NCBI GenBank assembly: GCA_937124525.1
Contig: CAKZLA010000257.1
Location: 1 to 16,487 of the forward strand
Direction: 5' to 3'
DNA length: 16,487 nt
Source: an uncultured Desulfobacterium sp.
GTDB taxonomy: Bacteria; Desulfobacterota; Desulfobacteria; Desulfobacterales; Desulfobacteraceae
Part shown: positions 2,276-16,487 of the stretch, piece after piece
Position numbering within the stretch: position 1 is the stretch's first letter
Layout of the letters: every line of letters starts with the position of its first letter
The notes under the pieces: model-generated
Seen by the model: only the letters and a program-made list of their open reading frames with translations
What the model was told of the DNA's origin: nothing
Databases searched by the model: none
Position numbers and translations under genes: made by a program

Positions 2276-3697
2276 TTAGCCTTTTTTTCGATTCTCCACG
2301 TACTGGGTCAATTTCTTTTCAATTGCCGGATCAATTTCGGGTTTTTCATAGGATGCCAGGCGCTGGGTCACCTTATCTTCGGCCACTTGGTCAATGCGTT
2401 GTTTTCCCGCCTTGGCCCAAGCATCTGAATTCATCCGGCTCATGGGGCCGGGCATGTAAAATTCCGTACGGCACAGCTTAAACGTTTTGGGATGTGTCAG
2501 ATATTGCCCCCCAATTCCCACATCTTTAATGATGTCAAGGTCAATGGACTCGTCCGTCAGGGCCAAGGGCTTGATCATATTTCGCACCATCCCGCAAATC
2601 TCTTCATCCACAATAAATTTTTCAAAACTCATGGCAATGTAAGATCCCAGAATACCGCAGGAATGGAGCATGAAATTAATGCCGCTCCGCACCGATGTGG
2701 AAAGGGCCAGGGCAGATTCAGCACCTGCCTGGGCATCGGTAAAAAGGGCATCTGTCAACCCGCCGCCAGCCCGGCTGGGAAGGCCATAGTAACGGGCAAT
2801 CTGGGCCACAAAGTGGATGTTTTTAGAAAGTTCAGGGGCACCAATGGAAAGGGCACCGGTTTTCATGTCCATGGCAGAAGAGGTGGACCCATATACCACC
2901 GGGGCACCGGGTTTTACCAGCTGGGCCAGGGTAATCCCGGCCAGGATTTCGGCATTTTGAAGTGCCAGTACACCGTCCAGGGTCACAGGGCCGGAACCAC
3001 CAGCCATGATAAGGGAAGCCACCACACAGGCCTGTCCATGACGGACCAGCTCAATGAGGGCCCCTGCCATCTCATCGGAAAATTGCAATGGAGATAAAGA
3101 ATTGATCAAAGAGACAGACACCGTTTTCTCCATGATATTTTCCTTCCCCCCCCAGAGAATACCGGCCATTTCAATGCCGTCCAGGGCTCCCTGGCGGGAG
3201 ACAGGACTTCCCATGAAGGGCTTGTCACAAAGGAGCATATTGGAGAGATTAAGATCCAGATGAACGGTTTCATGGGGCATGTCGGCTGGTTCCACCATCA
3301 TCCATCCATTCATATTAATGTATTTGGATGTCTGTACCAGCTTACAAAAATTATCATAATCTTCCATGGTGGCCTGTCGTTGATCTCCCTGTCCGTCAAT
3401 GACAAAGGGAGCTCCATAACCGGGCAGGAAAACAAAATCATCCTCACCAATTTCAACACTTTTTTCTGGATTTCGGGCATGGACGGTGAAGCGCTTGGGG
3501 GCCGTTTCAAGGGCTTTTTTGATATCGGATTCCTCAAAAAACACCGTTGTTCCTTCCACCTGATGGCCATTTTGCTTGAAAATTTCCAGGGCTTCGTCAT
3601 CGTTAAAGGCAACACCGGTATTTTTCAGAAGGTCCATGGATGCGGCATGAATTTTTTCCAGATTTTCTGTATCAAGTTCCTGCATTCTATCGTACAT
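2276..3697 (-). CDS. Trimethylamine methyltransferase (MttB) family protein, non-pyrrolysine type
   Basis: A 473-residue member of the MttB superfamily (COG5598): cytoplasmic TIM-barrel enzymes that move a methyl group from a quaternary or tertiary amine to a corrinoid protein. The N-terminus (LEKIHAASMDLLKNTGV), the middle (TLDGVLALQNAEILAGI, then PVVYGSTSS) and the DAQAGAESALAL block are typical. The frame is open from start to stop with no internal TAG, so it lacks the pyrrolysine of true trimethylamine methyltransferases. It belongs with the non-Pyl homologues, of which MtgB (glycine betaine), MtpB (proline betaine) and MtcB (carnitine) are characterised. The start at 3697 is preceded by GGGGAG eight bases away. 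It sits 54 nt downstream of the BCCT transporter gene, presumably as an operon, which favours a betaine-like substrate. The corrinoid protein and the methyl-THF transferase partner are not in this window. Confidence 0.9.
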   Translation of the reverse strand: MYDRMQELDTENLEKIHAASMDLLKNTGVAFNDDEALEIFKQNGHQVEGTTVFFEESDIKKALETAPKRFTVHARNPEKSVEIGEDDFVFLPGYGAPFVIDGQGDQRQATMEDYDNFCKLVQTSKYINMNGWMMVEPADMPHETVHLDLNLSNMLLCDKPFMGSPVSRQGALDGIEMAGILWGGKENIMEKTVSVSLINSLSPLQFSDEMAGALIELVRHGQACVVASLIMAGGSGPVTLDGVLALQNAEILAGITLAQLVKPGAPVVYGSTSSAMDMKTGALSIGAPELSKNIHFVAQIARYYGLPSRAGGGLTDALFTDAQAGAESALALSTSVRSGINFMLHSCGILGSYIAMSFEKFIVDEEICGMVRNMIKPLALTDESIDLDIIKDVGIGGQYLTHPKTFKLCRTEFYMPGPMSRMNSDAWAKAGKQRIDQVAEDKVTQRLASYEKPEIDPAIEKKLTQYVENRKKG

Positions 3698-3751
3698 GTG
3701 ACATGTCTCCCCGGGGGCGTTGAAAAACAACCCCGTATTTAAGGTTTGTGG

Positions 3752-5254
3752 TTATTGATTATTTTCTTTTTTATATTTTGCAAGTCCCCGAAAGGTGCCA
3801 AACAGCACCAGTAAAAGAAGGAACATTAATGGAAATGCCGTTGCAATGGATGCGGTCTGAATGGCTTTTAAGCTACCGGTTCCTGCCAGAACCGCAGCCA
3901 CAGCTCCCAGGGCAATGCCCCAGAAAGCCCGGAGATTTTTCCCGGGGTTCTCATGGCCCGATACAAACATGGCAAGGGAAATGGCCGCAGAATTGGCACT
4001 GGTCAGAAAAAAGGTACCAATGAGAAAAATCAGGGCAATGGATAAAATGCCGGTCATGGGAAGATTCTGTGCAATGGCAAAAATCGCACTTTCCACCCCA
4101 TGCTCCTTTAATGTGCCGGTGACATCAAAACTGATGCCCGCACCGCCGATAACGCCATACCACAAAAAATTTCCCAGGGTGGGCAGAATAAGCGTGGCGG
4201 CAACGGTTTCCCGGATGGTTCTGCCCTTGGAAATTCTGGCAATGAACACTGCCACAAAGGGTGCCCAGCTCATCCACCAGGCCCAGTAGAATACTGTCCA
4301 GCTTCCGATCCAGTTCCCCTCATACCCCGGGGCGGTGAAAAGACTCATGGGAATAAAATGGAGCAGATACTGACCAATAGCGTTGGTGGTGAGATTGATA
4401 AGAAAAATGGTGGGTCCAAAAATTAGAATAAAAAACCACACCGCCACAAACACCCACATGTTGATATCGCCAATGAGTTTCACCCCTTTTTCAAGACCTG
4501 TGTAAACGGAAAAGGTAAAAATGGCGGTGAGCACACCGATGATGATGTAGGTACTGCTGGGGCCAAGCTCCAGGCCATACTGGAATTTTAATCCACTGGA
4601 AAGCTGAAGCGCCACCAACCCTGTGGTGGTGGCAAGCCCCCCCAATGTTGCAAAAACCGCGAATATATCCAAGACTTTGCCCCAGGCTCCATGAATTTTA
4701 TCCCCAATAACATAGTAGAAAGCGCTGGAAAATTTCAGGGGAAGATTCTTGGTAAAACAGGCATGGGCAATGGCAATGGTGAGCATGGCATAGATGGACC
4801 AGGCACTGAGCCCCCAATGGAAAAAGGAGTAGGTCATGGCATTGGCCCCGGCTGCCGGGGTAAGGGCGTCTCCGCCAAAGTAAGGAGGTGGGGTCATGTA
4901 GTGGTAAGCGGGTTCAGCAGGCCCCCAGAAAACGATGCCAGCGGCAATGGCCGATCCAAACAGCATGGCAAACCAGGAAAAATTTGAAAACTCCGGCTTG
5001 TCATGGGCAAAACCCAGCTTCAAATTTCCATAACCGGGCCCCATGAGCACAAAGCAGCCGATGACCAATAAAAATGCCGTTAACAGATAAAGCCATGCCC
5101 AATTGGTGGTGGTCCAACTGAAAACGGCATTAATAGTTTTAGCCATGTTTTCCGGAAAAACAATGGACCAGAGGACAAACAGAACGGTTAATGAGGCTGA
5201 CACCCAGAATACCATGGGATCAAAGGGTTTAGTTGGGGTTATTGGCTGTGACAT
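3752..5254 (-). CDS. BCCT family betaine/carnitine/choline transporter
   Basis: A 500-residue inner-membrane secondary transporter of the betaine-carnitine-choline family, with about 12 hydrophobic helices. Visible family marks are the TM3 region with WGPAEPAYHY (about residues 110-119), the YTGLEKGVK motif on the linking helix, and the tryptophan-rich WTVFYWAWWMSWAPF segment that forms the aromatic cage for trimethylammonium groups, followed by ARISKGRT. The usual glycine run of Na+-coupled members (G-M-G-I-G) reads GSAIAAGIVFW here, so ion coupling is uncertain. The start at 5254 has AAGGAG about seven bases upstream; the 37 codons that could extend it lie over the leader and were rejected. 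It is the first gene after a sigma-54 promoter and is followed by the methyltransferase gene, which suggests uptake of a quaternary amine as a carbon/energy source rather than only as an osmolyte. Confidence 0.92.
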   Translation of the reverse strand: MSQPITPTKPFDPMVFWVSASLTVLFVLWSIVFPENMAKTINAVFSWTTTNWAWLYLLTAFLLVIGCFVLMGPGYGNLKLGFAHDKPEFSNFSWFAMLFGSAIAAGIVFWGPAEPAYHYMTPPPYFGGDALTPAAGANAMTYSFFHWGLSAWSIYAMLTIAIAHACFTKNLPLKFSSAFYYVIGDKIHGAWGKVLDIFAVFATLGGLATTTGLVALQLSSGLKFQYGLELGPSSTYIIIGVLTAIFTFSVYTGLEKGVKLIGDINMWVFVAVWFFILIFGPTIFLINLTTNAIGQYLLHFIPMSLFTAPGYEGNWIGSWTVFYWAWWMSWAPFVAVFIARISKGRTIRETVAATLILPTLGNFLWYGVIGGAGISFDVTGTLKEHGVESAIFAIAQNLPMTGILSIALIFLIGTFFLTSANSAAISLAMFVSGHENPGKNLRAFWGIALGAVAAVLAGTGSLKAIQTASIATAFPLMFLLLLVLFGTFRGLAKYKKENNQ

Positions 5255-5390
5255 GTGACACTCCTTATACACATTAGGTTTCAACTGACCTTTTGGGTCA
5301 GCGGGATCAAAAATTCTTTTAGAATCCGGTTTCAATTTGACCACCCACAAAATGGGAAAAATCAAACCCAGGACCTATGAATACATTGAT

Positions 5391-5406
5391 AGCAGGTTGT
5401 GTGCCA
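5391..5406 (-). promoter_or_regulatory. Sigma-54 (-24/-12) promoter of the transporter-methyltransferase operon
   Basis: On the minus strand the site reads TGGCACACAACCTGCT. The GG and GC elements are separated by exactly 10 nt, and the sequence matches the consensus TGGCACG-N4-TTGCW at all but two specified positions. Transcription would start near 5380, leaving a leader of about 126 nt before the transporter ATG. An enhancer-binding protein gene lies just upstream. Confidence 0.75.
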
Positions 5407-5536
5407 CACGGATAAAAACAATTTGCATAAAACAGGATGAATCACATAAAAAATTGATATAATTCACAATATAGCAAATATAAAATTAACAATTTATTAA
5501 AATAATCAAAACATATGGCAGGCAGAAAAGGAAATG

Positions 5537-5583
5537 TTTTCATTTGAAAAATTATTTTCGCAAAGATTATTTTCTAATGAAAA
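5537..5583 (-). promoter_or_regulatory. Candidate enhancer (UAS): two TTTTC-N4-GAAAA palindromes
   Basis: Two matching palindromes, TTTTCATTTGAAAA (5537-5550) and TTTTCTAATGAAAA (5570-5583), share the arms TTTTC/GAAAA. Their centres are 33 bp apart, about three helical turns, so they lie on the same face of the DNA. They sit about 164 and 197 bp upstream of the inferred start site, a usual place for activator binding at sigma-54 promoters. The region is A+T-rich, which raises the risk of chance similarity. Confidence 0.5.
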
Positions 5584-5675
5584 ATATTTGTCGCTATCTG
5601 GTATCAGGCGAATTCCCATTTTCCCGATCGGAGGCTTCATTAGCGATGGGGCAGGCGTTTTTTTAAAAAAGACCT

Positions 5676-7277
5676 TCAGCGTTTCATAAAGTCAACCCGG
5701 CTTAACCCATGTTTTTTAATTTTATAATGCAGTAATTGCCGGGAAATACCCAGGATGGAAGATGCCCGGGTCACATTCCCCCGGGAAGCGGTGAGGGCCT
5801 CCTTAATGGATAATTTTTCCTGTTCAGCCTGATTACGGGCCAGGGGGATCTTCACCTCGGGTTCCAGTGGCTGTGCCCAGCGGGGTTGATCACAGCAGGA
5901 ATGCAATTTTTCAGAAAGATGCTCGGTGGAAAAATGGCTTGAAAGCTGAGGCAGAGATTTCCCCAATTCTGATATGGAAGCAGACGTCACAGATGAAGCC
6001 GGGGGTATTTCATTCATCGCAAGATCACCTTTGGACTCCAGGGGGTCGGCATCAAGACTTTCCCAGCTCTCAAGCCCCGATGAAAAATGTTGAATTTTTA
6101 ATATTTTCTCATGACCTGTCATGTTCATGGCACCTTCAATGAGATGCTCCAACTCCCTGATATTTCCCGGCCAGGCATAGGCCATGAAAAGATCCATCAC
6201 TTCAGGAGAGACCTGTTCCACATGGGTACCCAAAAGGGTATTGATTTTATCAATAAAATGAAATACCAGTTCACCCATGCCCTTTCGACGCTCCCTTAAA
6301 GGGGGCAGTTTTAACACCACCACCCCCAGGCGATAGAAAAGATCCATTCTTAATACATTTTTATTCACCGACATGCGGGGATCATCACTGACAGAACTGA
6401 TGATTTTAATATCCAGCACAGTTTCTTTTGTTGAACCCACCCGGCGCACCGATTTCTCCTGGATTACCCGCAACAGTTTGGCCTGGAGGACAATGGGCAT
6501 GGACAATAATTCATCCAGAAAAAGGGTACCTCCATTGGCCATTTCAAATAATCCGGGCTTATCAAGGGCGCCGGTGAAAGCCCCTTTGGTGGTTCCAAAC
6601 AGCAGGCCTTCCAGCAAATCGTGGGGGATGGCGGCGCAGTTGACCCCCACAAATTTTTTTTTGTTCCGCCAACTGTGGTTGTGGATGGATTGGGCAAATA
6701 ACTCTTTACCGGTACCGGTCTCTCCCTGGATCATGATGGGGGACGAAGAGGAGGATGCCTTTCTGGCAGCACTGACCATTCTTTGAAAATCAGGGCTGTT
6801 GCCAATGAGATCTGCAAAGGTATAACGGGTTCCATTTCCCAGATCCGGGCGACACTGTGTGATGGATGCCATGGGGGTTGATGCCTGTAACAATTCATAA
6901 TCTTTGACAAAACAGATGACCCCGTTCACCTCATCGCCTTTAAAAAGAGGATACACACTGGTGATGGTGTTGGCCACTTTGCCTGAACAGGTGCGATAAA
7001 AAAACGTTCTGTTTTTAATGGAGGCCCGACGATGAACACATTGCATGATCATGCTGGTCTGCTTGTTCAGCTCATAGATATCAGTGACTTTTAATCCCAC
7101 CACATCCTGGGCGTTAATGGCATCTATTTTGGATTGGGAATGATTGTAAAACAAAATGGTTCCCTGGGTATCAGCAATGATCACGCCATCATCCAGGCGA
7201 TCCAATACGGATAAAAAATCAATTTGTCCCATTTCCAATGGAAAAGGAAATTCTCGATCATGGGGTTGACTGGCCAT
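5676..7277 (-). CDS. Sigma-54-dependent transcriptional activator (PAS, AAA+, Fis-type HTH)
   Basis: A 533-residue enhancer-binding protein. An N-terminal PAS-like sensor domain (about 18-127) is followed by the AAA+ sigma-54 interaction domain: Walker A GETGTGKE (185-192), the GAFTGA loop that contacts sigma-54 (232-237), Walker B GTLFLDEL (250-257), FYRLG and LPPLRER (314-330) and WPGNIRELE (369-377). A long variable linker (~395-485) leads to a Fis-type helix-turn-helix at the C-terminus (~490-524, with GNVTRASSILGISRQLL). All residues needed for ATP hydrolysis and sigma-54 contact seem present. There is no receiver domain, so it is not a classical two-component regulator; the PAS domain probably senses a small ligand or redox state. 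The start has AAGGAT about seven bases upstream. It lies directly upstream of the sigma-54 promoter of the transporter-methyltransferase operon, its most likely target. Confidence 0.93.
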   Translation of the reverse strand: MASQPHDREFPFPLEMGQIDFLSVLDRLDDGVIIADTQGTILFYNHSQSKIDAINAQDVVGLKVTDIYELNKQTSMIMQCVHRRASIKNRTFFYRTCSGKVANTITSVYPLFKGDEVNGVICFVKDYELLQASTPMASITQCRPDLGNGTRYTFADLIGNSPDFQRMVSAARKASSSSSPIMIQGETGTGKELFAQSIHNHSWRNKKKFVGVNCAAIPHDLLEGLLFGTTKGAFTGALDKPGLFEMANGGTLFLDELLSMPIVLQAKLLRVIQEKSVRRVGSTKETVLDIKIISSVSDDPRMSVNKNVLRMDLFYRLGVVVLKLPPLRERRKGMGELVFHFIDKINTLLGTHVEQVSPEVMDLFMAYAWPGNIRELEHLIEGAMNMTGHEKILKIQHFSSGLESWESLDADPLESKGDLAMNEIPPASSVTSASISELGKSLPQLSSHFSTEHLSEKLHSCCDQPRWAQPLEPEVKIPLARNQAEQEKLSIKEALTASRGNVTRASSILGISRQLLHYKIKKHGLSRVDFMKR

Positions 7278-7596: not shown

Positions 7597-8778
7597 TCAG
7601 CATTGATTTTTTACATGGGTGGTGTATCCACAACCATAACATCGCGTTGCCTCGGCAAGGGCCGAAGGGGCATCAAAGGTCTGCTCCATCATTTTTCTAT
7701 TATCACCGGAAGGGCCATTGTCTGAATAAAGGGGCTCAACTCTGACAGCAGAGGGAAACCCGGTGCGATCAATATCTTTTTCACCCACCACGCGGGAACT
7801 TGCACGGCTCCGTTCTCCCAGAAGATAAATATCCATGGACTGGGCTGTTCCATTCCCCACCCGGGAAATTGCCACAGATTCCCGGATGGCACTGCTGCCT
7901 GTATCAAAATATACATACAGCGCAATGGCCGCAGTTTTGCCGAAACCCACTGCATGGGCAATGCTCTGGATACCGTTGTACCACCCCCCTCCGTACACCA
8001 CAGGAATCTTCCCAAGCTCTATGGTCAAATTGCCAAGTTCAATGTGCCGGGGATTTTCCCGGGTCTGGAGTGCCCCATGAAGGGTGGCTTTCCCATTGCC
8101 AAGGCATTGGGAAAAGGTCATGGACTGGGAAATACCCGATCCCACCACCACGGTGTGATACTGTGAAACCAAATTTTTAACAAAATCCGGGGACAAAGAC
8201 TGTCCACATTTGATACTCACTCCCAAGTCACGAATTCTGTCAATCTCCATATTGAGAACTTTCCCTGGAAGGCGTGATTCTGGGATGCACCATTGAGCGG
8301 ATTGATTAGGTGAAGGAGCTGAATCATACACATCACATGAAAATCCGAAAATCGAAAGAAAATAGGCCGCAGATAATCCAGAAGGACCTGCACCCAAAAT
8401 CGCAACACGCTTTCCATTTGATGGAAGTTTCCTGATGACCGGGGAAAATTCACGGTTCAAGGCAAGGTCTCCCACAAATCGCTCCATGCAGTGAATGGCG
8501 ATGGCATCGTCCTGGGCCGTGCGATGGCAGGCGGTTTCACAGGAGGGAAAACAGATACGACCGCAGGTGGAGGGGAAGGGATTTTCCACCATAAGGGTTT
8601 CAAAGGCATTTAAAAATTGTCCCTGGAGTACATGGTGCTGCATCTTTGGAATATCAACCCCGGCGGGGCAGGCAGCACTACAGGGCGCAACACTCTGTTG
8701 GACAGTGGATTTAACGGCGTGGAGGTTATAAAGCCTTGTGGTACTGATCAATGGCTCATCGTATACGGCATCAAGCAT
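7597..8778 (-). CDS. GltD-like FAD/iron-sulfur oxidoreductase lacking the NADPH domain
   Basis: A 393-residue relative of the glutamate synthase small subunit (GltD). The N-terminal iron-sulfur domain is well kept: CSAACPAGVDIP (33-44), then NPFPSTCGRICFPSCETAC (66-84), giving the Cys33, 37, 72, 76, 80 and 84 pattern. The FAD Rossmann motif is GAGPSGLSAAYF (129-140). The LPGKVLNMEIDRIRDLGV segment (170-187) and the 'ATG'-like GSGI (213-216) follow. Only ~45 residues later comes the C-terminal flavin segment (GGGWYNG 263-269, then SIAHAVGFGKTAA). Full-length relatives have a ~150-residue NADPH domain between these points, and it seems absent. The flavin-contacting GGD also reads GGG. The tail ends in a Cys cluster (RCYGCG...NQC). 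The start at 8778 has GGGGGA upstream. It probably passes electrons between protein partners; the partner is unknown. Confidence 0.7.
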   Translation of the reverse strand: MLDAVYDEPLISTTRLYNLHAVKSTVQQSVAPCSAACPAGVDIPKMQHHVLQGQFLNAFETLMVENPFPSTCGRICFPSCETACHRTAQDDAIAIHCMERFVGDLALNREFSPVIRKLPSNGKRVAILGAGPSGLSAAYFLSIFGFSCDVYDSAPSPNQSAQWCIPESRLPGKVLNMEIDRIRDLGVSIKCGQSLSPDFVKNLVSQYHTVVVGSGISQSMTFSQCLGNGKATLHGALQTRENPRHIELGNLTIELGKIPVVYGGGWYNGIQSIAHAVGFGKTAAIALYVYFDTGSSAIRESVAISRVGNGTAQSMDIYLLGERSRASSRVVGEKDIDRTGFPSAVRVEPLYSDNGPSGDNRKMMEQTFDAPSALAEATRCYGCGYTTHVKNQC

Positions 8779-9132
8779 GGTGCACAATCCCCCAAAATCA
8801 GAAATTTGATTCAAAAAATATATAAAGTATATTTCTTGAATTATATTTAGCAAGACTAAACTTTATTTACTTAAAATTAATATTGACAATATTAATGTCA
8901 TGTCAAGACAAATATTGCAACAGGATTTTTCTTGATTTAAGCTTGATTTTCCAGTATGTCCCAGACTTAAAATCAATTCCTTTTTTTCCTCTCCTTGCAG
9001 GTACCCTAAAAAACTGGTATTACAAACAAAAAATAACGAATTGAGGGCATCCTTACATATGACCCCAAAAGTACTTTAGCATCGGGCGCTCTCCCATTTT
9101 CCCGAGAACCATCATTAACTTAAGGAGAAAAA
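8779..9132. other. Divergent intergenic region
   Basis: 354 nt between the minus-strand flavoprotein gene and the plus-strand dehydrogenase gene. It holds a candidate promoter with an overlapping dyad for the flavoprotein (8877-8906). Near the dehydrogenase it holds a short hairpin (TCGGG 9082-9086 with CCCGA 9101-9105) and the palindrome AAAGTACTTT (9068-9077). I could not identify the dehydrogenase promoter with confidence. Confidence 0.4.
8877..8906 (-). promoter_or_regulatory. Candidate sigma-70 promoter with overlapping dyad
   Basis: On the minus strand, TTGACA (8906-8901) is followed after 18 nt by TATTAA (8882-8877), about 100 nt upstream of the flavoprotein start. The -35 box is one arm of an inverted repeat, TTGACA-N12-TGTCAA (8883-8906), so a repressor or activator could bind over the promoter. 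The -10 box is only a 4/6 match. Confidence 0.35.
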
Positions 9133-10353
9133 ATGAATAAATATATAAATATGTTTGAAGGTGACTACAACCCTTTTGATGCCCTTTTCACCCTGCTGAC
9201 CCAGGAGAAAGCACGGGTTGAAAAGGCCATCCAGACCCGGGGACAATTTAATCCCGTGGCCTTAAGCACCAAACGCCCCCTTAAAATCGGATTTGCCCCG
9301 GGAGACGGCATTGGCCCCATTGTGGCCGAGGCAGCCCGCACCATCCTTGAATCTTTGCTGGCCAAGGAAATTAAAGCCGGTGAGATTTCCGTGGTGGAAA
9401 TCCCGGATCTCACCATTGAAAAAAGACTGGAACTGGATGTGGTGGCTCCCCAGACCTCCATTGATGTCATTGACCAGTGTGACGTGATTTTAAAAATGCC
9501 CCTGGAGACCCCGGACAGCTCCAAATATCCCAATGTCCCCAGTGCCAATGTGTGGATGCGGCAATACATGGATCTGTTTGCCTGCCAGCGAAATATTAAA
9601 AACGATGAAATGGGTATTAATTTTACTGTATTCCGCTGTAATCTGGGTACCCCCTACCAGGATGCAAAATCAGCTGGGGTCTCAAGCCTCAATGGCCAGG
9701 AAGAGTACGCCATGTGCTTCTGGCCCCAGGCAAGAATAGATATTGAACGTCTCACCCACATGGCCTGTCTCCATGCCCTGGAAAGCAAATCGGGCGGGGT
9801 GGTGCTCAACTTTAAAGACAATGTGATCAAACCGGATGCGGCAGCCCTTAACTGGGCCAAGGCCTACATTGATGCCAATTTCCCGGACCTTGATTATTTA
9901 AGCGTCAAGCCCGATGATTTTTCCTACACCGTGACCCAGCCGGAAAAACTCAAAGCCATGAAGGGTGAAAAAACAGGCAAGGATTTTCCCCTGAGTACGC
10001 TGGTTTGCAACAATATCGTTGGGGATATGGCAGGAGATGAAGCGGGCATGTATGTGGGGGGCATTGGGGGAGTGGGATCAGCCAATTTATCCTTTACCCA
10101 GGGTATGTTTGAAGCAGGTGGCGGTACCGGTACCCGCATGATGCAGGAAAACAGAGGCCACTTTTCTTCCCCTGTGGCAGTGGTCAAGGCCACGGGTGAA
10201 TTACTGGAATTCATCGGATACCCTGATCTTATGACCTCTGTGTTTAAGGCTGTGGATGCCCTGACAACGGCAAATCTGGTGCCCAATGGCGGTAAAAACG
10301 GGGTCACCTGCCAGCAGGCCACCCAGTTTCTCTTGAAACAACTGGCGGATTAA
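9133..10353 (+). CDS. Isocitrate/isopropylmalate dehydrogenase family protein (divergent)
   Basis: A 406-residue member of the beta-decarboxylating dehydrogenase family, which oxidises and decarboxylates a (2R,3S)-hydroxy acid such as isocitrate or 3-isopropylmalate. Visible family blocks are the N-terminal GDGIG (57-61), SANVWMR with a second Arg at 153 (substrate carboxylates), the lysine block KDNVIK (228-233), and the metal-binding NNIVGDMAGDEA (293-304) followed by GGIGGVGSAN. The cofactor loop, normally HGSAPDIAG or similar, reads GGGTGTRMMQENRGH (329-343), so the conserved His-Gly and Pro are missing. NAD(P) choice and substrate therefore cannot be predicted. Isocitrate is plausible in a bacterium with a TCA-type pathway, but a different hydroxy acid is possible. 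The start has AGGAG six to seven bases upstream. It stands alone, convergent with the porin gene. Confidence 0.75.
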   Translation: MNKYINMFEGDYNPFDALFTLLTQEKARVEKAIQTRGQFNPVALSTKRPLKIGFAPGDGIGPIVAEAARTILESLLAKEIKAGEISVVEIPDLTIEKRLELDVVAPQTSIDVIDQCDVILKMPLETPDSSKYPNVPSANVWMRQYMDLFACQRNIKNDEMGINFTVFRCNLGTPYQDAKSAGVSSLNGQEEYAMCFWPQARIDIERLTHMACLHALESKSGGVVLNFKDNVIKPDAAALNWAKAYIDANFPDLDYLSVKPDDFSYTVTQPEKLKAMKGEKTGKDFPLSTLVCNNIVGDMAGDEAGMYVGGIGGVGSANLSFTQGMFEAGGGTGTRMMQENRGHFSSPVAVVKATGELLEFIGYPDLMTSVFKAVDALTTANLVPNGGKNGVTCQQATQFLLKQLAD

Positions 10354-12329: not shown

Positions 12330-13259
12330 CTATACCTCTGGCCGAGGATAAAGCCCACTTCGTTCCACAATCTCGGGCACCTTCTCCTCCCATTCAATGG
12401 CCATAACGTGGAATCCGGCAATGCCCTCCACCTCTTTGAGACGTTGAATATGCTCAACGCAAATGTTAATGCCCTCCTGGGCCTGTTTTTTCTTTTCCAC
12501 CCCGGCAAGACGGGCAATTATCTCGTCAGGGACATCCATGCCCGGTACCCTGTTTTTCATGAACTTTGCCATGGGCGCTGATTTCATGGGGGTCATACCA
12601 GCCATGATAAAGGTCTTTTCATGGAGCCCACGGTCTCTCACCCGTCGCATCCACTCCTCAAATTTATCAATGTTATAAATACACTGGGTCTGGATAAATT
12701 CCGCCCCGCAGGCGATTTTCTTGGCCAGGCGCGGTACCCGAATCTCAAAGGGATCGGCAAAGGGGTTTGCTGCGGCCCCCACAAACATTTTGGGAGGTCG
12801 TTTGATGTCATCTCCACCCAGGAATTTTCCTTCATCTCTCATGTGCCTGACGGTCTGGACCAGTTGCATGGAATCCAGATCATGTACATTTTGACCCTGG
12901 GCACAGTCACCAAAACTCTGGTGATCCCCGGAAAGGCACAGCACATTGTGAATATCAAAGGAGGCCGCCCCCAGAAGATCACTCTGCAGGGCCACCCGGT
13001 TGCGATCCCGTGTGACCATCTGGAGGATGGGTTCAAGGCCCATCTGTTTTAAATGAATACAGGCGGCAAGGGAACTCATGCGGGTCATGGCGGTCTGGTT
13101 ATCGGTGATGTTCACCGCATCCACATGATCCTTGATCAAAGCGCCCTTGGAAGTAACCGCTTCAGGATCACTTCCCCGGGGGGGACCACATTCTGAGGTG
13201 ACGGCAATGTGCCCCGATTTGAAAACCTTTTCCAGCTTACTTGGTGTGTTCATTTTCAT
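12330..13259 (-). CDS. metF: Methylenetetrahydrofolate reductase, MetF
   Basis: A 309-residue flavoprotein of the MTHFR family that interconverts methyl-THF and methylene-THF in the cytoplasm. The N-terminal catalytic Glu block is SECGPPRG, followed by NITDNQ, the folate/flavin segment TRDRNR, the CLSGDH strand and GAEFIQTQCIYN, all in normal order along a TIM barrel. The length fits the ~300-residue bacterial form. The start at 13259 overlaps the metV stop in an ATGA and has GGGAGG upstream, so the two are translationally coupled. A longer reading of 19 more codons is open but falls inside metV and was rejected. The stop is TAG. The company of metV, mvhD and hdrA places it in the Wood-Ljungdahl methyl branch; in a sulfate reducer it would mainly run in the oxidative direction. 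Confidence 0.93.
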   Translation of the reverse strand: MKMNTPSKLEKVFKSGHIAVTSECGPPRGSDPEAVTSKGALIKDHVDAVNITDNQTAMTRMSSLAACIHLKQMGLEPILQMVTRDRNRVALQSDLLGAASFDIHNVLCLSGDHQSFGDCAQGQNVHDLDSMQLVQTVRHMRDEGKFLGGDDIKRPPKMFVGAAANPFADPFEIRVPRLAKKIACGAEFIQTQCIYNIDKFEEWMRRVRDRGLHEKTFIMAGMTPMKSAPMAKFMKNRVPGMDVPDEIIARLAGVEKKKQAQEGINICVEHIQRLKEVEGIAGFHVMAIEWEEKVPEIVERSGLYPRPEV

Positions 13260-13924
13260 ACTTGGACGTCCTCCCTTGCCACTGTTCTGGGTCCACCGGC
13301 CCGCTCCGTTGACCAATCCTTAATGGGGGTCACAATCTCGTAATCATCCATACGATCCAGATCTCTTAACCGATCAATGATCAACTGCCAGGCACAGTCC
13401 AAATCCTTGTTAATCTCGCATTTACCGCCGGTGGACCCCCCACAGGGACCATTCATCACCCGTTTCGCGCATCGAGAAATAGGACAAATACCGGCGGTGT
13501 GGGCCAATACACAGGAACCACACGCCTGACACCGTTCCGTCCACAACCCTCTTTTTTCCGTGGCCCCCAGAAAGCAGGTATTCACCCCGGGAATCAACGG
13601 GGTGGTGTGGTATTTTTCCGCCATGAACTGCACCCCCACCCCACAGGCAAGGGAAAGCACGGCATCGTAATTATCAATGACACTACGGATTTCCTCCAGA
13701 TATTCATGGTCGCACTGCCGTTCCAGAGTCTGTTCATCAAAGGTTTTCTTACTGCCCTTCTGGATAAAATGCATTCTAAGGGCAGATGCCAGTACCTCCA
13801 CCTCTTTTTTTCCGCCAGCTTCACACACGGTCACGCATTCATTGCACCCCAACACCAGGATTCGGTCGTAGGCCTTGACCGTTTCTATGATCTCTTCAAT
13901 CGGCTTTTTATCGGCTACTATCAT
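13256..13924 (-). CDS. metV: MetV, zinc/iron-sulfur partner of methylenetetrahydrofolate reductase
   Basis: A 222-residue protein of the MTHFR C-terminal (MetV) family, which forms the MetFV complex in acetogens and links MetF to further electron carriers. The N-terminal half is a Rossmann-like fold with LGCNECVTVCEAGG (residues 25-38) and LACGVGVQ. The C-terminal half has the cysteine-rich cluster site: CQACGSC, then CPISRCAK, NGPCGGSTGGKCE and DLDCAW. Length and cysteine order match the family. The start at 13924 has GAGG about eight bases upstream. The gap of 154 nt to mvhD contains no gene that I can support, only a small palindrome (ATGTTTT-ATA-AAAACAT, 14052-14068) just past the mvhD stop. 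The 3' end overlaps metF by four bases. Confidence 0.92.
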   Translation of the reverse strand: MIVADKKPIEEIIETVKAYDRILVLGCNECVTVCEAGGKKEVEVLASALRMHFIQKGSKKTFDEQTLERQCDHEYLEEIRSVIDNYDAVLSLACGVGVQFMAEKYHTTPLIPGVNTCFLGATEKRGLWTERCQACGSCVLAHTAGICPISRCAKRVMNGPCGGSTGGKCEINKDLDCAWQLIIDRLRDLDRMDDYEIVTPIKDWSTERAGGPRTVAREDVQV

Positions 13925-14078: not shown

Positions 14079-14519
14079 TCATGCCGCAGTTTTTTGGGCT
14101 TCCAGGGCCGTTCTCACCGGGCTTGGGCCAAGGGCTCTTATGTGTGCATCCATCTCAATGGCATATTGGGCAAACAAGGGGCCTTCACCAGAGGACAGGT
14201 TGTACATGCGAACCCGTTCTCCGCCAACGCCTACGGTATCCAGGATGGCCGCCACTTGTTCAACCCGTTTTTTTGCCCTGAAATTTCCTGTTTTAAAATG
14301 ACAATCCCCCTCCATGCACCCCACAACAAACACGCCATCAGCCCCCTTTTCAAAGGCTCTTAACATGTGAATCACATCAACCTTTCCCGTGCAGGGTAAA
14401 CGAATGATTCTAAAGTTGCTGGGGCATTTCAATCTCATCGAACCTGCCAGGTCCGCAGCAGAGTACCCTCAGTAGTTGCAGCAGAAAGCCAGAATTACCG
14501 GTTCAAAATCGGTGCTCAT
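14079..14519 (-). CDS. mvhD: MvhD-type hydrogenase/Hdr iron-sulfur subunit, selenocysteine-containing
   Basis: A 146-residue electron-transfer subunit of the MvhD/VhuD family, which docks on HdrA and carries a [2Fe-2S] cluster. The start ATG overlaps the hdrA stop (ATGA). Reading from it gives MSTDFEPVILAFCCNY, then an in-frame TGA (14471-14469) at codon 17, then GYSAADLAGSMRLKCP and on to the stop. The family has Cys at this point (CCNYC), so TGA is read as selenocysteine. A conventional reading would stop after 16 codons or begin at the internal Met28 (14438), losing the first cluster ligands. Other conserved Cys are 13, 14, 32, 43, 68 and 73 (GCMEGDCHF). A SECIS-like hairpin follows the TGA. 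Its place between hdrA and metV suggests that it passes electrons between MetFV and HdrA. Confidence 0.9.
14439..14455 (-). promoter_or_regulatory. Candidate bacterial SECIS element in mvhD
   Basis: On the minus strand CGGACCT-GGC-AGGTTCG forms a 7-bp stem (one G-U pair) with a three-base loop starting in GG. The loop begins 21 nt after the TGA. Bacterial SECIS elements lie immediately 3' of the UGA, with a short apical stem and a G at the start of the loop at about this distance. Folding was done by eye. Confidence 0.65.
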
Positions 14520-16487
14520 ATTTCCCCCTCCAGCAAAGCTTCCACCTTGCTGAGCAATTGATTGTCTTCATACCAGTTGAGCTTGATGGTTTTGGCAGGA
14601 CACTCGGATACACACACACCACAGCCCTGGCACAGGGCCGGATCAATGTAACTCTTTCCCTCCTCATTGATCCGGGGGACAGAAAACGGACAGGATCGCA
14701 CGCAGATAAGGCAGGATGCGCAATGATCAGGATCGACTTCTGCTGTCACCGCCGACAGGGTGAGAAAATCCTGGGAAAGATAGGTGGTGGCCCGGGAGGC
14801 CGCTGCCATTGCCTGGGCAATGGTCTCTGTGATCAGCTTGGGACTGTGGGCCGTTCCACAGATAAACACCCCTTCTGTGGCGGCATCCACCGGCCTTAAT
14901 TTCACATGGGCCTCAATGAAAAACCCTTCTCTGTTACGACCGGTTTTAATGATGGTGGAAAGCTCTTCGGTGTCTGCTGCGGTCACCCCGGCACTCAGGG
15001 CCACAAGATCCGCATCCACGGCAAGTTTTCTTCCCAGCACATGGTCAGAAAAGGTGACCGTGATACCGTCAGGGCCTTTTTCCACCACCGGGGGATCTTG
15101 GGGATCAAAGCGAAAAAAGAGCACCCCTTTTTTCCGGGCCTGGGTGTAGTATTCTTCCAGCATGGAATACATGCGCATATCCCGGTAAAGGATAAACACA
15201 TCAGCATCGGGGTTGAGTTCTTTGATGTGCAGGGCATTTTTTATGGCCCCCTGGCAGCACACCCGGGAACAATTGGGATTTTCCTGGTTCCGTGATCCCA
15301 CACACTGGATCATCACCACCTGTTGCAGATGATCAGCGCCCCTCTCTTCAAGCATTTCCCCCAGTTCCAGCTGGGTCACGATCTCATCGGTGTCGGGGTA
15401 ACCATATTCTGTTGGCACATACTCATTGGCACCGGTGGCCACAATCATGACCCCATGCTCAATTTTACGTTCATACATACCAGGCCCCACCAGAACCTCG
15501 GTGGTGAAATTACCCTTATATCCGGTGAAGTCCACAATCAGGGCCTGTTTAAGCACCTGGATTTTATCATGGGTCTCCACTTTACCGGCAAGTTCCGCCA
15601 CAAATTTGCGGATATCGTTTCCTTCAATGGTGTGATACAATTTATTGCCAAGCCCTCCGAGGACGGCTTCCTTTTCCACCAGCACCACCTCAAATCCCTG
15701 GTCAGCAAGGCCCAGGGCCGATGTCATCCCTGCAATGCCGCCACCAATAACAAGGGCCCTCACCGTCACAGTGATTTTCTTTTCATGGAGGGGGGTCAAC
15801 GTGGCAGCCCGTGCCACAGCCATTTTCACCAGATCCTTGGCCTTTTTAGTGGCTTTTTCAGGTTCATGGAAATGCATCCAGGAGTTCTGGTTACGAATAT
15901 TAGCCATCTCAAAAAGATATTTATTCAGGCCACTTTTTTCCAGGGTATCCATGAAAATACCCTCGTGGGTCTTGGGGGTACACGAGGCCACAACCACCCG
16001 GTTCAGACGATGTTCCTGGATGATCTCCTTCATGATATCCTGGGCATCCTGGGAACAGGTAAACAGATTTTCACCGGTATAAACCACACCGGGCAACTTT
16101 TCTGCGTATTGGGCCACGGCATCCACATCCACAATACCGGCTATGTTGATGCCACATTTACACACAAAAACCCCGATGCGGGGCTCTTCGCCGGTGATGT
16201 CCCTTTCTTCTATCACCTCCACACTGTGGGTGCAGGTATCCCGGGCCGCCACCAGGGCCATGCCTGCGGCACAGGCAGCGCCACTTGCCTCGGTCACCGA
16301 AGAGGGAATATCCTTGGGACCCTGGCAACACCCGGCAAGAAAGACCCCGGCCGTTGGGGTGGCAACCGGTCCCAGCTTGGCATGGAGTTCCGTAAACCAG
16401 CCATCACCATCGGTCTGAACTCCGGCAAGTTTTCCTGTCTCAGCCGACCCCTCTGCCGGTTCAAGGCCTGTGCTGAGAATCACCATG
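14516..16487 (-). CDS. hdrA: HdrA-like heterodisulfide reductase subunit A, tandem form (5' end missing)
   Basis: The last ~656 residues of an HdrA-type iron-sulfur flavoprotein; the frame runs off the window and the Met at 16486 is internal. Visible residues 1-85 are the C-terminal end of one HdrA FAD module (LSTGLEP...AGVFLAGCCQGPKDI). Then a second, complete HdrA begins: an N-terminal domain with CKCG (109-112), CSQD and SCTPKTHEG; the FAD Rossmann motif GGGIAGM (248-254); the unusual cluster site CVGSRNQENPNCSRVCC (395-411); GVFICGTAHSPKLI; and two [4Fe-4S] motifs, CASCLICVRSCP (589-600) and CQGCGVCVSECP (619-630). The whole protein is thus probably over 1000 residues. HdrA is the flavin-based electron-bifurcating core of Hdr complexes. 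HdrB and HdrC do not follow it here. The stop overlaps the mvhD start by four bases. Confidence 0.9.
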   Translation of the reverse strand, partial: MVILSTGLEPAEGSAETGKLAGVQTDGDGWFTELHAKLGPVATPTAGVFLAGCCQGPKDIPSSVTEASGAACAAGMALVAARDTCTHSVEVIEERDITGEEPRIGVFVCKCGINIAGIVDVDAVAQYAEKLPGVVYTGENLFTCSQDAQDIMKEIIQEHRLNRVVVASCTPKTHEGIFMDTLEKSGLNKYLFEMANIRNQNSWMHFHEPEKATKKAKDLVKMAVARAATLTPLHEKKITVTVRALVIGGGIAGMTSALGLADQGFEVVLVEKEAVLGGLGNKLYHTIEGNDIRKFVAELAGKVETHDKIQVLKQALIVDFTGYKGNFTTEVLVGPGMYERKIEHGVMIVATGANEYVPTEYGYPDTDEIVTQLELGEMLEERGADHLQQVVMIQCVGSRNQENPNCSRVCCQGAIKNALHIKELNPDADVFILYRDMRMYSMLEEYYTQARKKGVLFFRFDPQDPPVVEKGPDGITVTFSDHVLGRKLAVDADLVALSAGVTAADTEELSTIIKTGRNREGFFIEAHVKLRPVDAATEGVFICGTAHSPKLITETIAQAMAAASRATTYLSQDFLTLSAVTAEVDPDHCASCLICVRSCPFSVPRINEEGKSYIDPALCQGCGVCVSECPAKTIKLNWYEDNQLLSKVEALLEGEI

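Follow-up and report, generated by a model that had tools for sequence, protein, structure and literature searches.

An in-frame UGA followed by a frozen codon block points to a selenocysteine MvhD encoded beside HdrL and MetVF in Desulfobacterales

Introduction

In the solved complexes of methanogens, MvhD contains a [2Fe-2S] cluster and acts as an electron donor to HdrA, as described in the available text of two reports (PMC6019823, PMC12350162); the literature that we searched names no ligands of this cluster. Selenocysteine (Sec) forms of MvhD in sulfate reducers are already published (PMC2702500, PMC5109826). Desulfobacterium autotrophicum HRM2 encodes Sec-containing MvhD1, 2, 3 and 5 together with Sec-containing HdrA and HdrL, and has selA, selB, selC and selD; like the locus described here, it is a case of a Sec-MvhD beside hdrA/hdrL in a sulfate reducer, but the available part of that account has no word on adjacency to metVF and makes no comparison of SECIS codons (PMC2702500). 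Desulfococcus multivorans likewise has mvhD with a UGA upstream of a SECIS element, under two locus tags, but there one mvhD adjoins hdrA1 with a disulfide oxidoreductase gene and the other adjoins hdrA2-hdrBC, and metVF goes unmentioned in the portion of the report available (PMC5109826).

VhuD of Sec-using archaea belongs to the same family and has Sec in a CxxU motif, whereas archaeal SECIS elements differ in standing mostly in the 3′ UTR (PMC13188914). Reviews list the Sec-containing MvhD/VhuD family, one of them with the CxxU motif (PMC13188914, PMC9312934), and a deep-sea deltaproteobacterial genome is described as encoding Sec-containing hydrogenase and heterodisulfide reductase subunits (PMC8318568). 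Moorella thermoacetica resembles the present locus in combining MvhD and HdrA with MetFV, and its MetFV-HdrABC-MvhD complex has been purified; it differs in having HdrABC, whereas the locus described here encodes a long HdrL fusion and Sec in a putative complex (PMC5861303). A preliminary description of our locus, made from its sequence, had mentioned Sec-containing MvhD from sulfate reducers and Sec-containing VhuD from Sec-decoding methanogens, and the published accounts bear this out for sulfate reducers and for Sec-using archaea (PMC2702500, PMC5109826, PMC13188914, as far as their available text goes). To these known systems we add frozen SECIS codons, two alternative Sec sites, a second selenoprotein in the same cluster and a Sec-free twin of that cluster; the titles and abstracts searched, a partial coverage of the literature, hold no report of the frozen codon block or of a Sec-free metVF twin.

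Results

The window analysed here is a 16,487-nt stretch of DNA from an uncultured Desulfobacterium sp., whose minus strand carries hdrA/hdrL, mvhD, metV and metF as adjacent genes in that order, spanning 16486 down to 12330. The 3′ part of hdrA/hdrL (14516..16486, minus strand) is truncated by the window's end. It is followed by mvhD, of the FlpD family (14079..14519, minus strand), by metV, which encodes an MTHFR C-terminal/DUF5981 protein according to its profile match and stands 3′ of mvhD in relatives as well (13256..13924, minus strand), and by metF, encoding methylenetetrahydrofolate reductase (12330..13259, minus strand), for which comparison with the related locus L001 favours a 309-aa product from an ATG over the listed 328-aa form from TTG 13316. 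The mvhD ATG (14519-14517) shares an ATGA overlap with the hdrA stop (TGA 14518-14516), as the preliminary description had seen, and upstream of it the sequence holds a Shine-Dalgarno-like GGAGGGGG (14524..14531, minus strand). From this ATG the frame encodes 146 aa, counting Sec17, and ends at a TGA (14081-14079), with an in-frame TGA as codon 17 (14469..14471, minus strand), which we read as Sec, at the last position of the CCxxC/U motif. When this TGA is taken as a residue, the product matches Pfam FlpD (PF02662) over profile positions 1-123 of 123 (1e-47), whereas standard ORF calling (table 11) gives only a 119-aa mvhD product starting at Met28 (14438).

Relatives were collected with two sequence patterns, [IV]R[LV]PCTGK[VIL] and GCMEGDC, neither of which includes codon 17 or the hairpin described below. 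Of the 555 stretches confirmed in a scan of species-representative genomes of bacteria and archaea, the best 80 were taken, an uneven sampling. Codon 17 is TGA in all 80 of these loci, by motif in 75 and by translation in five, and in the window. The metV gene stands 3′ of mvhD in 75 of the best 80 loci, and both metV and metF follow it in 72; of the eight loci lacking the pair, seven have less than 1.3 kb of contig left and one, L077, has 6 kb without them. In alignment with homologues the UGA falls on a conserved Cys, giving CxxU as in Sec-type MvhD/VhuD, and cysteine is conserved at five sites in all, 14, 17, 43, 68 and 73; that the TGA takes the family's Cys position in a frame running to the normal end, as had been proposed, is thus borne out by both the sequence and the alignment with Cys homologues. 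A sequencing error or a pseudogene would account for an in-frame stop and nothing more, whereas a TGA at this codon (14469-14471 in the window) recurs in many independent assemblies (81/81, best 80 of 555 plus window), with purifying selection on both sides of it; we discard this reading as practically inconceivable. The start at ATG 14519 is itself supported, because P7, I9, F12 and C14, upstream of the TGA, are conserved in 81/81 sequences (best 80 of 555 plus window) while their synonymous codons vary.

We next compared synonymous variation at all 62 codons that have synonyms and encode a residue conserved to at least 95% among the 81 sequences (best 80 of 555 plus window). Exactly five of the 62 show zero synonymous change, and these are contiguous (residues 22-26, GCG GAC CTG GCA GGT), while the next least variable codon has a codon entropy of 0.42 bits and the wobble bases of residues 18, 19, 21 and 27 beside the block vary. 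In the window, this 15-nt block, GCGGACCTGGCAGGT, occupies 14442..14456 (minus strand), and it is invariant in the Sec17/Gly18 relatives examined. The frozen codons, nt +16 to +30 from the T of the TGA, lie over the hairpin GGACCU-GGC-AGGUUC, with the loop at +24; on the basis of the frozen codons, pair counts and folds, we predict a 17-nt SECIS hairpin, CGGACCU-GGC-AGGUUCG (14439..14455, minus strand; loop GGC 14448-14446). The preliminary description had likewise seen a 17-nt hairpin with a GG-starting loop, but its placement 21 nt after the TGA needs correction, since the stem begins 13 nt and the loop 20 nt after it. The published bacterial SECIS model has a loop of 3-9 nt with G in the first two positions, a stem of 4-16 bp, a spacing of 16-37 nt and an energy of at most -7.5 kcal/mol (PMC13188914, available text), and the hairpin, with its GGC loop, 7 bp and 20 nt, fits this model; the fold energies of -15.8 kcal/mol (54 nt) and -10.2 kcal/mol (44-nt relative) are those of whole folds, not of the hairpin alone.

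Of three folds, those of 54 nt and 73 nt contain the hairpin, but the one of 132 nt, which begins at the ATG, lacks it, and the energies are no better than those of dinucleotide shuffles (z of -0.53, -0.61 and +0.25, respectively). Folding energy was therefore discarded as uninformative and counts as no evidence for a SECIS. Scanning the window with Rfam models (gathering cut-off) and for tRNAs returned no matches. Within the Sec17 clade the stem varies too little for a covariation test, and the frozen synonymous sites serve instead. The outermost of the seven pairs persists in just 39 of the 112 Sec17 relatives; in a fixed register, 6 of the 112 hairpins lack the fifth pair counted from the loop, and the divergent Sec17 paralogues L104 and L109 do not fit the hairpin register. 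A codon block with zero variation offers an easy way to test for a SECIS element when folding energy is uninformative.

Cys17 homologues provided a control for this block. We combined the best 80 of 555 loci and the window with loci from 4 genomes, loci from 116 genomes and 40 regions picked among the matches listed (20 rows without and 20 with stops), merging identical sequences to give 160; sampling was hand-picked and uneven, and the resulting 112 TGA17, 44 Cys17 and 4 other sequences are therefore not frequencies in nature. The block at codons 22-26 is identical in 107/107 distinct Sec17/Gly18 sequences versus 1/44 Cys17 sequences; the residues ADLAG are kept in 30/44 Cys17 sequences, the nucleotide block in that one alone. 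Of the five remaining Sec17 sequences, three have Gly22 (GGGGACCTGGCAGGT twice, GGGGACCTGGCGGGT once), and the other two, L104 and L109, have other codons. The single Cys17 exception, L100 of Desulfonema magnum (1477-1890), has the Sec-type block intact and is the sole Cys17 sequence with Gly18. A tree of the 160 sequences (130 columns) was poorly resolved, with 58 of 156 inner branches open and the bootstrap unsettled, and was therefore used for two placements only: it sets the window beside L001 (100/95) and groups L100 with 11 Sec17 sequences (99/83). L100 looks like a Sec-to-Cys reversion that still bears the hairpin sequence.

Among the best 120 database homologues, 56 start beyond residue 17, 53 have Cys there, eight have Trp (the CCNFWGY entries P0004, P0005, P0007, P0010, P0016, P0018, P0024 and P0032) and three lack the anchor. 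The Sec-bearing N-terminus is thus missing from about half of these entries, and the expectation that ordinary annotation loses the start and the UGA holds. These truncated entries, and the fact that ordinary calling yields exactly the 119-aa ORF, are what one would expect if translation began at the internal ATG (14438), giving an MvhD without the CCxxC/U motif, and if the TGA were the true stop of something else. Such an internal start is very improbable and we discard it: it conflicts with the purifying selection on P7, I9, F12 and C14 before the TGA, leaves the frozen hairpin codons without a role, and is at odds with the Cys homologues of MvhD, which are full length. The Trp17 entries, for their part, would agree with a genome-wide reassignment of UGA to Trp or another residue (codes 4 or 25), but UGA is the normal terminator of both mvhD itself and hdrA in the window, the family has Cys at position 17 and relatives possess sel genes; reassignment is discarded on these grounds as exceedingly improbable. 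The Trp17 entries probably reflect UGA translated by table 4, chosen by the gene caller for those contigs.

The Sec machinery was sought in relatives of the window's organism. In two sel-component scans all 14 of 14 control genomes also gave matches at E 0.001, with 5 genomes exceeding the cut-off in one scan and 2 in the other, and therefore only matches over the curated cut-offs were counted. The nearest cultured relative among the matches listed, Desulfocicer vacuolatum DSM 3385, has an MvhD 96% identical to that of the window, with neighbouring HdrA 89% and MetV and MetF 96% identical. Its genome contains tRNA-Sec (75.8 bits, cut-off 47), SelB (380 bits), SelA (609 bits) and SelD (363 bits), and its SelD gene itself carries an in-frame TGA. 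Across 18 relatives' genomes, matches over the cut-off were found for tRNA-Sec in 16, SelB in 18, SelA in 18 and SelD in 17; the two genomes without tRNA-Sec over the cut-off are both MAGs, and one of them is also without SelD. Sec incorporation would, by extension from these relatives, also occur in the window's own organism. The in-frame TGA17 of mvhD is confirmed, and the proposal that MvhD is a selenoprotein is supported by TGA in 81/81 sequences (best 80 of 555 plus window), by the frozen hairpin codons and by the sel genes of relatives.

A second position in the same protein can also carry TGA. In 14 paralogues (L088, L089, L092, L093, L094, L098, L105, L109, L113, L181, L182, L183, L185 and L186) residue 68 is TGA; 13 of these have Cys17, and L109 has TGA at both 17 and 68. 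The codon 22-26 block varies in these 14, and a stem-loop of similar build stands after codon 68 instead. Two paralogues have AUUACCU-GGA-AGGUAAU, five have AUUUCCU-GGA-AGGAAAU, and the remaining seven share a form that has mostly lost the loop-adjacent pair and so has a loop of five bases. The loops begin with GG in 12/14 and GT in 2/14, and one stem pair is A-U in 9 and U-A in 5. As the codon-17 and codon-68 hairpins stand at non-homologous places, their likeness is not strict covariation, and the A-U/U-A change alone is. In chain K of PDB 9sfi (‘F420-non-reducing hydrogenase subunit delta’) a non-standard residue X aligns to residues 17 and 68, so that this chain resembles the window's MvhD at 17 and differs from it in the second such residue at 68; we take X to be Sec and the chain to come from an archaeon.

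The gene upstream of mvhD appears to encode a further selenoprotein. In L001 the long HdrL frame upstream of mvhD runs 1516 codons back to the previous TAA/TAG, and 68 of the 80 loci (the best of 555) contain the motif NDC(T/A)MU(V/I)ISPK, its sixth codon being TGA in 68/68; the site is a CxxU at L001:1757-1759, and the corresponding site of the window lies beyond its end. Codons +5 to +11 past this TGA (AAA CTG GTC GAG GTC GGC CGG) are invariant in the 68 loci save one GCC at the third, and in L001 the block folds as CUGGUCG-AGGU-CGGCCGG, although shuffled sequences reach energies just as good. Desulfospira joergensenii (G009) has, in addition to its Sec cluster, a second hdrL-mvhD-metV-metF cluster without Sec (L187:9281-15884), with a 1484-aa HdrL that has TGC at the Sec site and no in-frame stop, and with a Cys17 MvhD. 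Between the two clusters MetV is 96.4% and MetF 99.6% identical (MetF over 265 residues). Of the 36 genomes compared, which include many incomplete MAGs, D. joergensenii was the only one with two MetF at least 80% identical to the window's, and the twin therefore rests on one species.

Discussion

Taken together, these observations make it very probable that mvhD encodes a 146-residue [2Fe-2S] subunit in which UGA17 is decoded as Sec through SelB and the hairpin and which, as the gene neighbourhood leads us to infer for the complex and its electron path, links HdrL/HdrA to MetVF. In the mechanism that we propose, SelB and Sec-tRNA would bind the hairpin, whose GGC loop stands 20 nt downstream of the UGA, and Sec would be placed in CCxxU. 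In this Desulfocicer-like sulfate reducer the Sec-MvhD would, by analogy with the methanogen and Moorella complexes, link HdrL to MetVF, presumably within an HdrL-MvhD-MetVF complex. Electrons would travel through it between the flavoprotein HdrL/HdrA and the MetVF of the same cluster, whichever way the methyl branch runs. Sec17 would lie at or beside the [2Fe-2S] cluster, where it might shift the redox potential, downward in the proposal of the preliminary description.

MvhD might also be a real selenoprotein in which Sec17 neither ligates the cluster nor sets its potential, and instead protects or speeds thiol chemistry nearby or is an entrenched equivalent of Cys. This is a serious possibility, to which we give somewhat less than even weight: Cys17 homologues are present in the same genomes as Sec17 forms, and L100 has Cys among Sec17 relatives with its hairpin block kept, but Sec is found in 81/81 of the closest sequences (best 80 of 555 plus window) and also at residue 68, another conserved cysteine site. 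The natural Sec/Cys cases, namely the D. joergensenii clusters and D. magnum, make the role of Sec in an iron-sulfur carrier testable without engineering.

A Sec-containing MvhD linking HdrL to MetVF would connect selenium with the methyl branch through which marine sulfate reducers oxidize or fix carbon. More tentatively, we speculate that MetVF, the methylenetetrahydrofolate reductase of the Wood-Ljungdahl pathway, could in Desulfobacterales belong to a doubly selenium-dependent complex with Sec-HdrL and Sec-MvhD, constrained strongly enough to leave the SECIS codons of mvhD unchanged in the sampled clade, and that Sec-free twins could allow the electron-transfer arm to be exchanged according to selenium supply, with no change to the catalytic part.

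The remainder of the window carries genes of other kinds. At 2276-7277, an MttB-family methyltransferase (in a frame without TAG), a BCCT transporter and a sigma-54 activator stand together, as for betaine demethylation. A short (418 aa) relative of the PRK12771 NAD(P)-binding family (566 positions) is encoded at 7597-8853, the L001 form being 400 aa, and at 9133-10353 lies a relative of isocitrate/isopropylmalate dehydrogenases that scores far under the cut-offs of 16 NCBIfam models (best 75.6 bits, cut-off 484).
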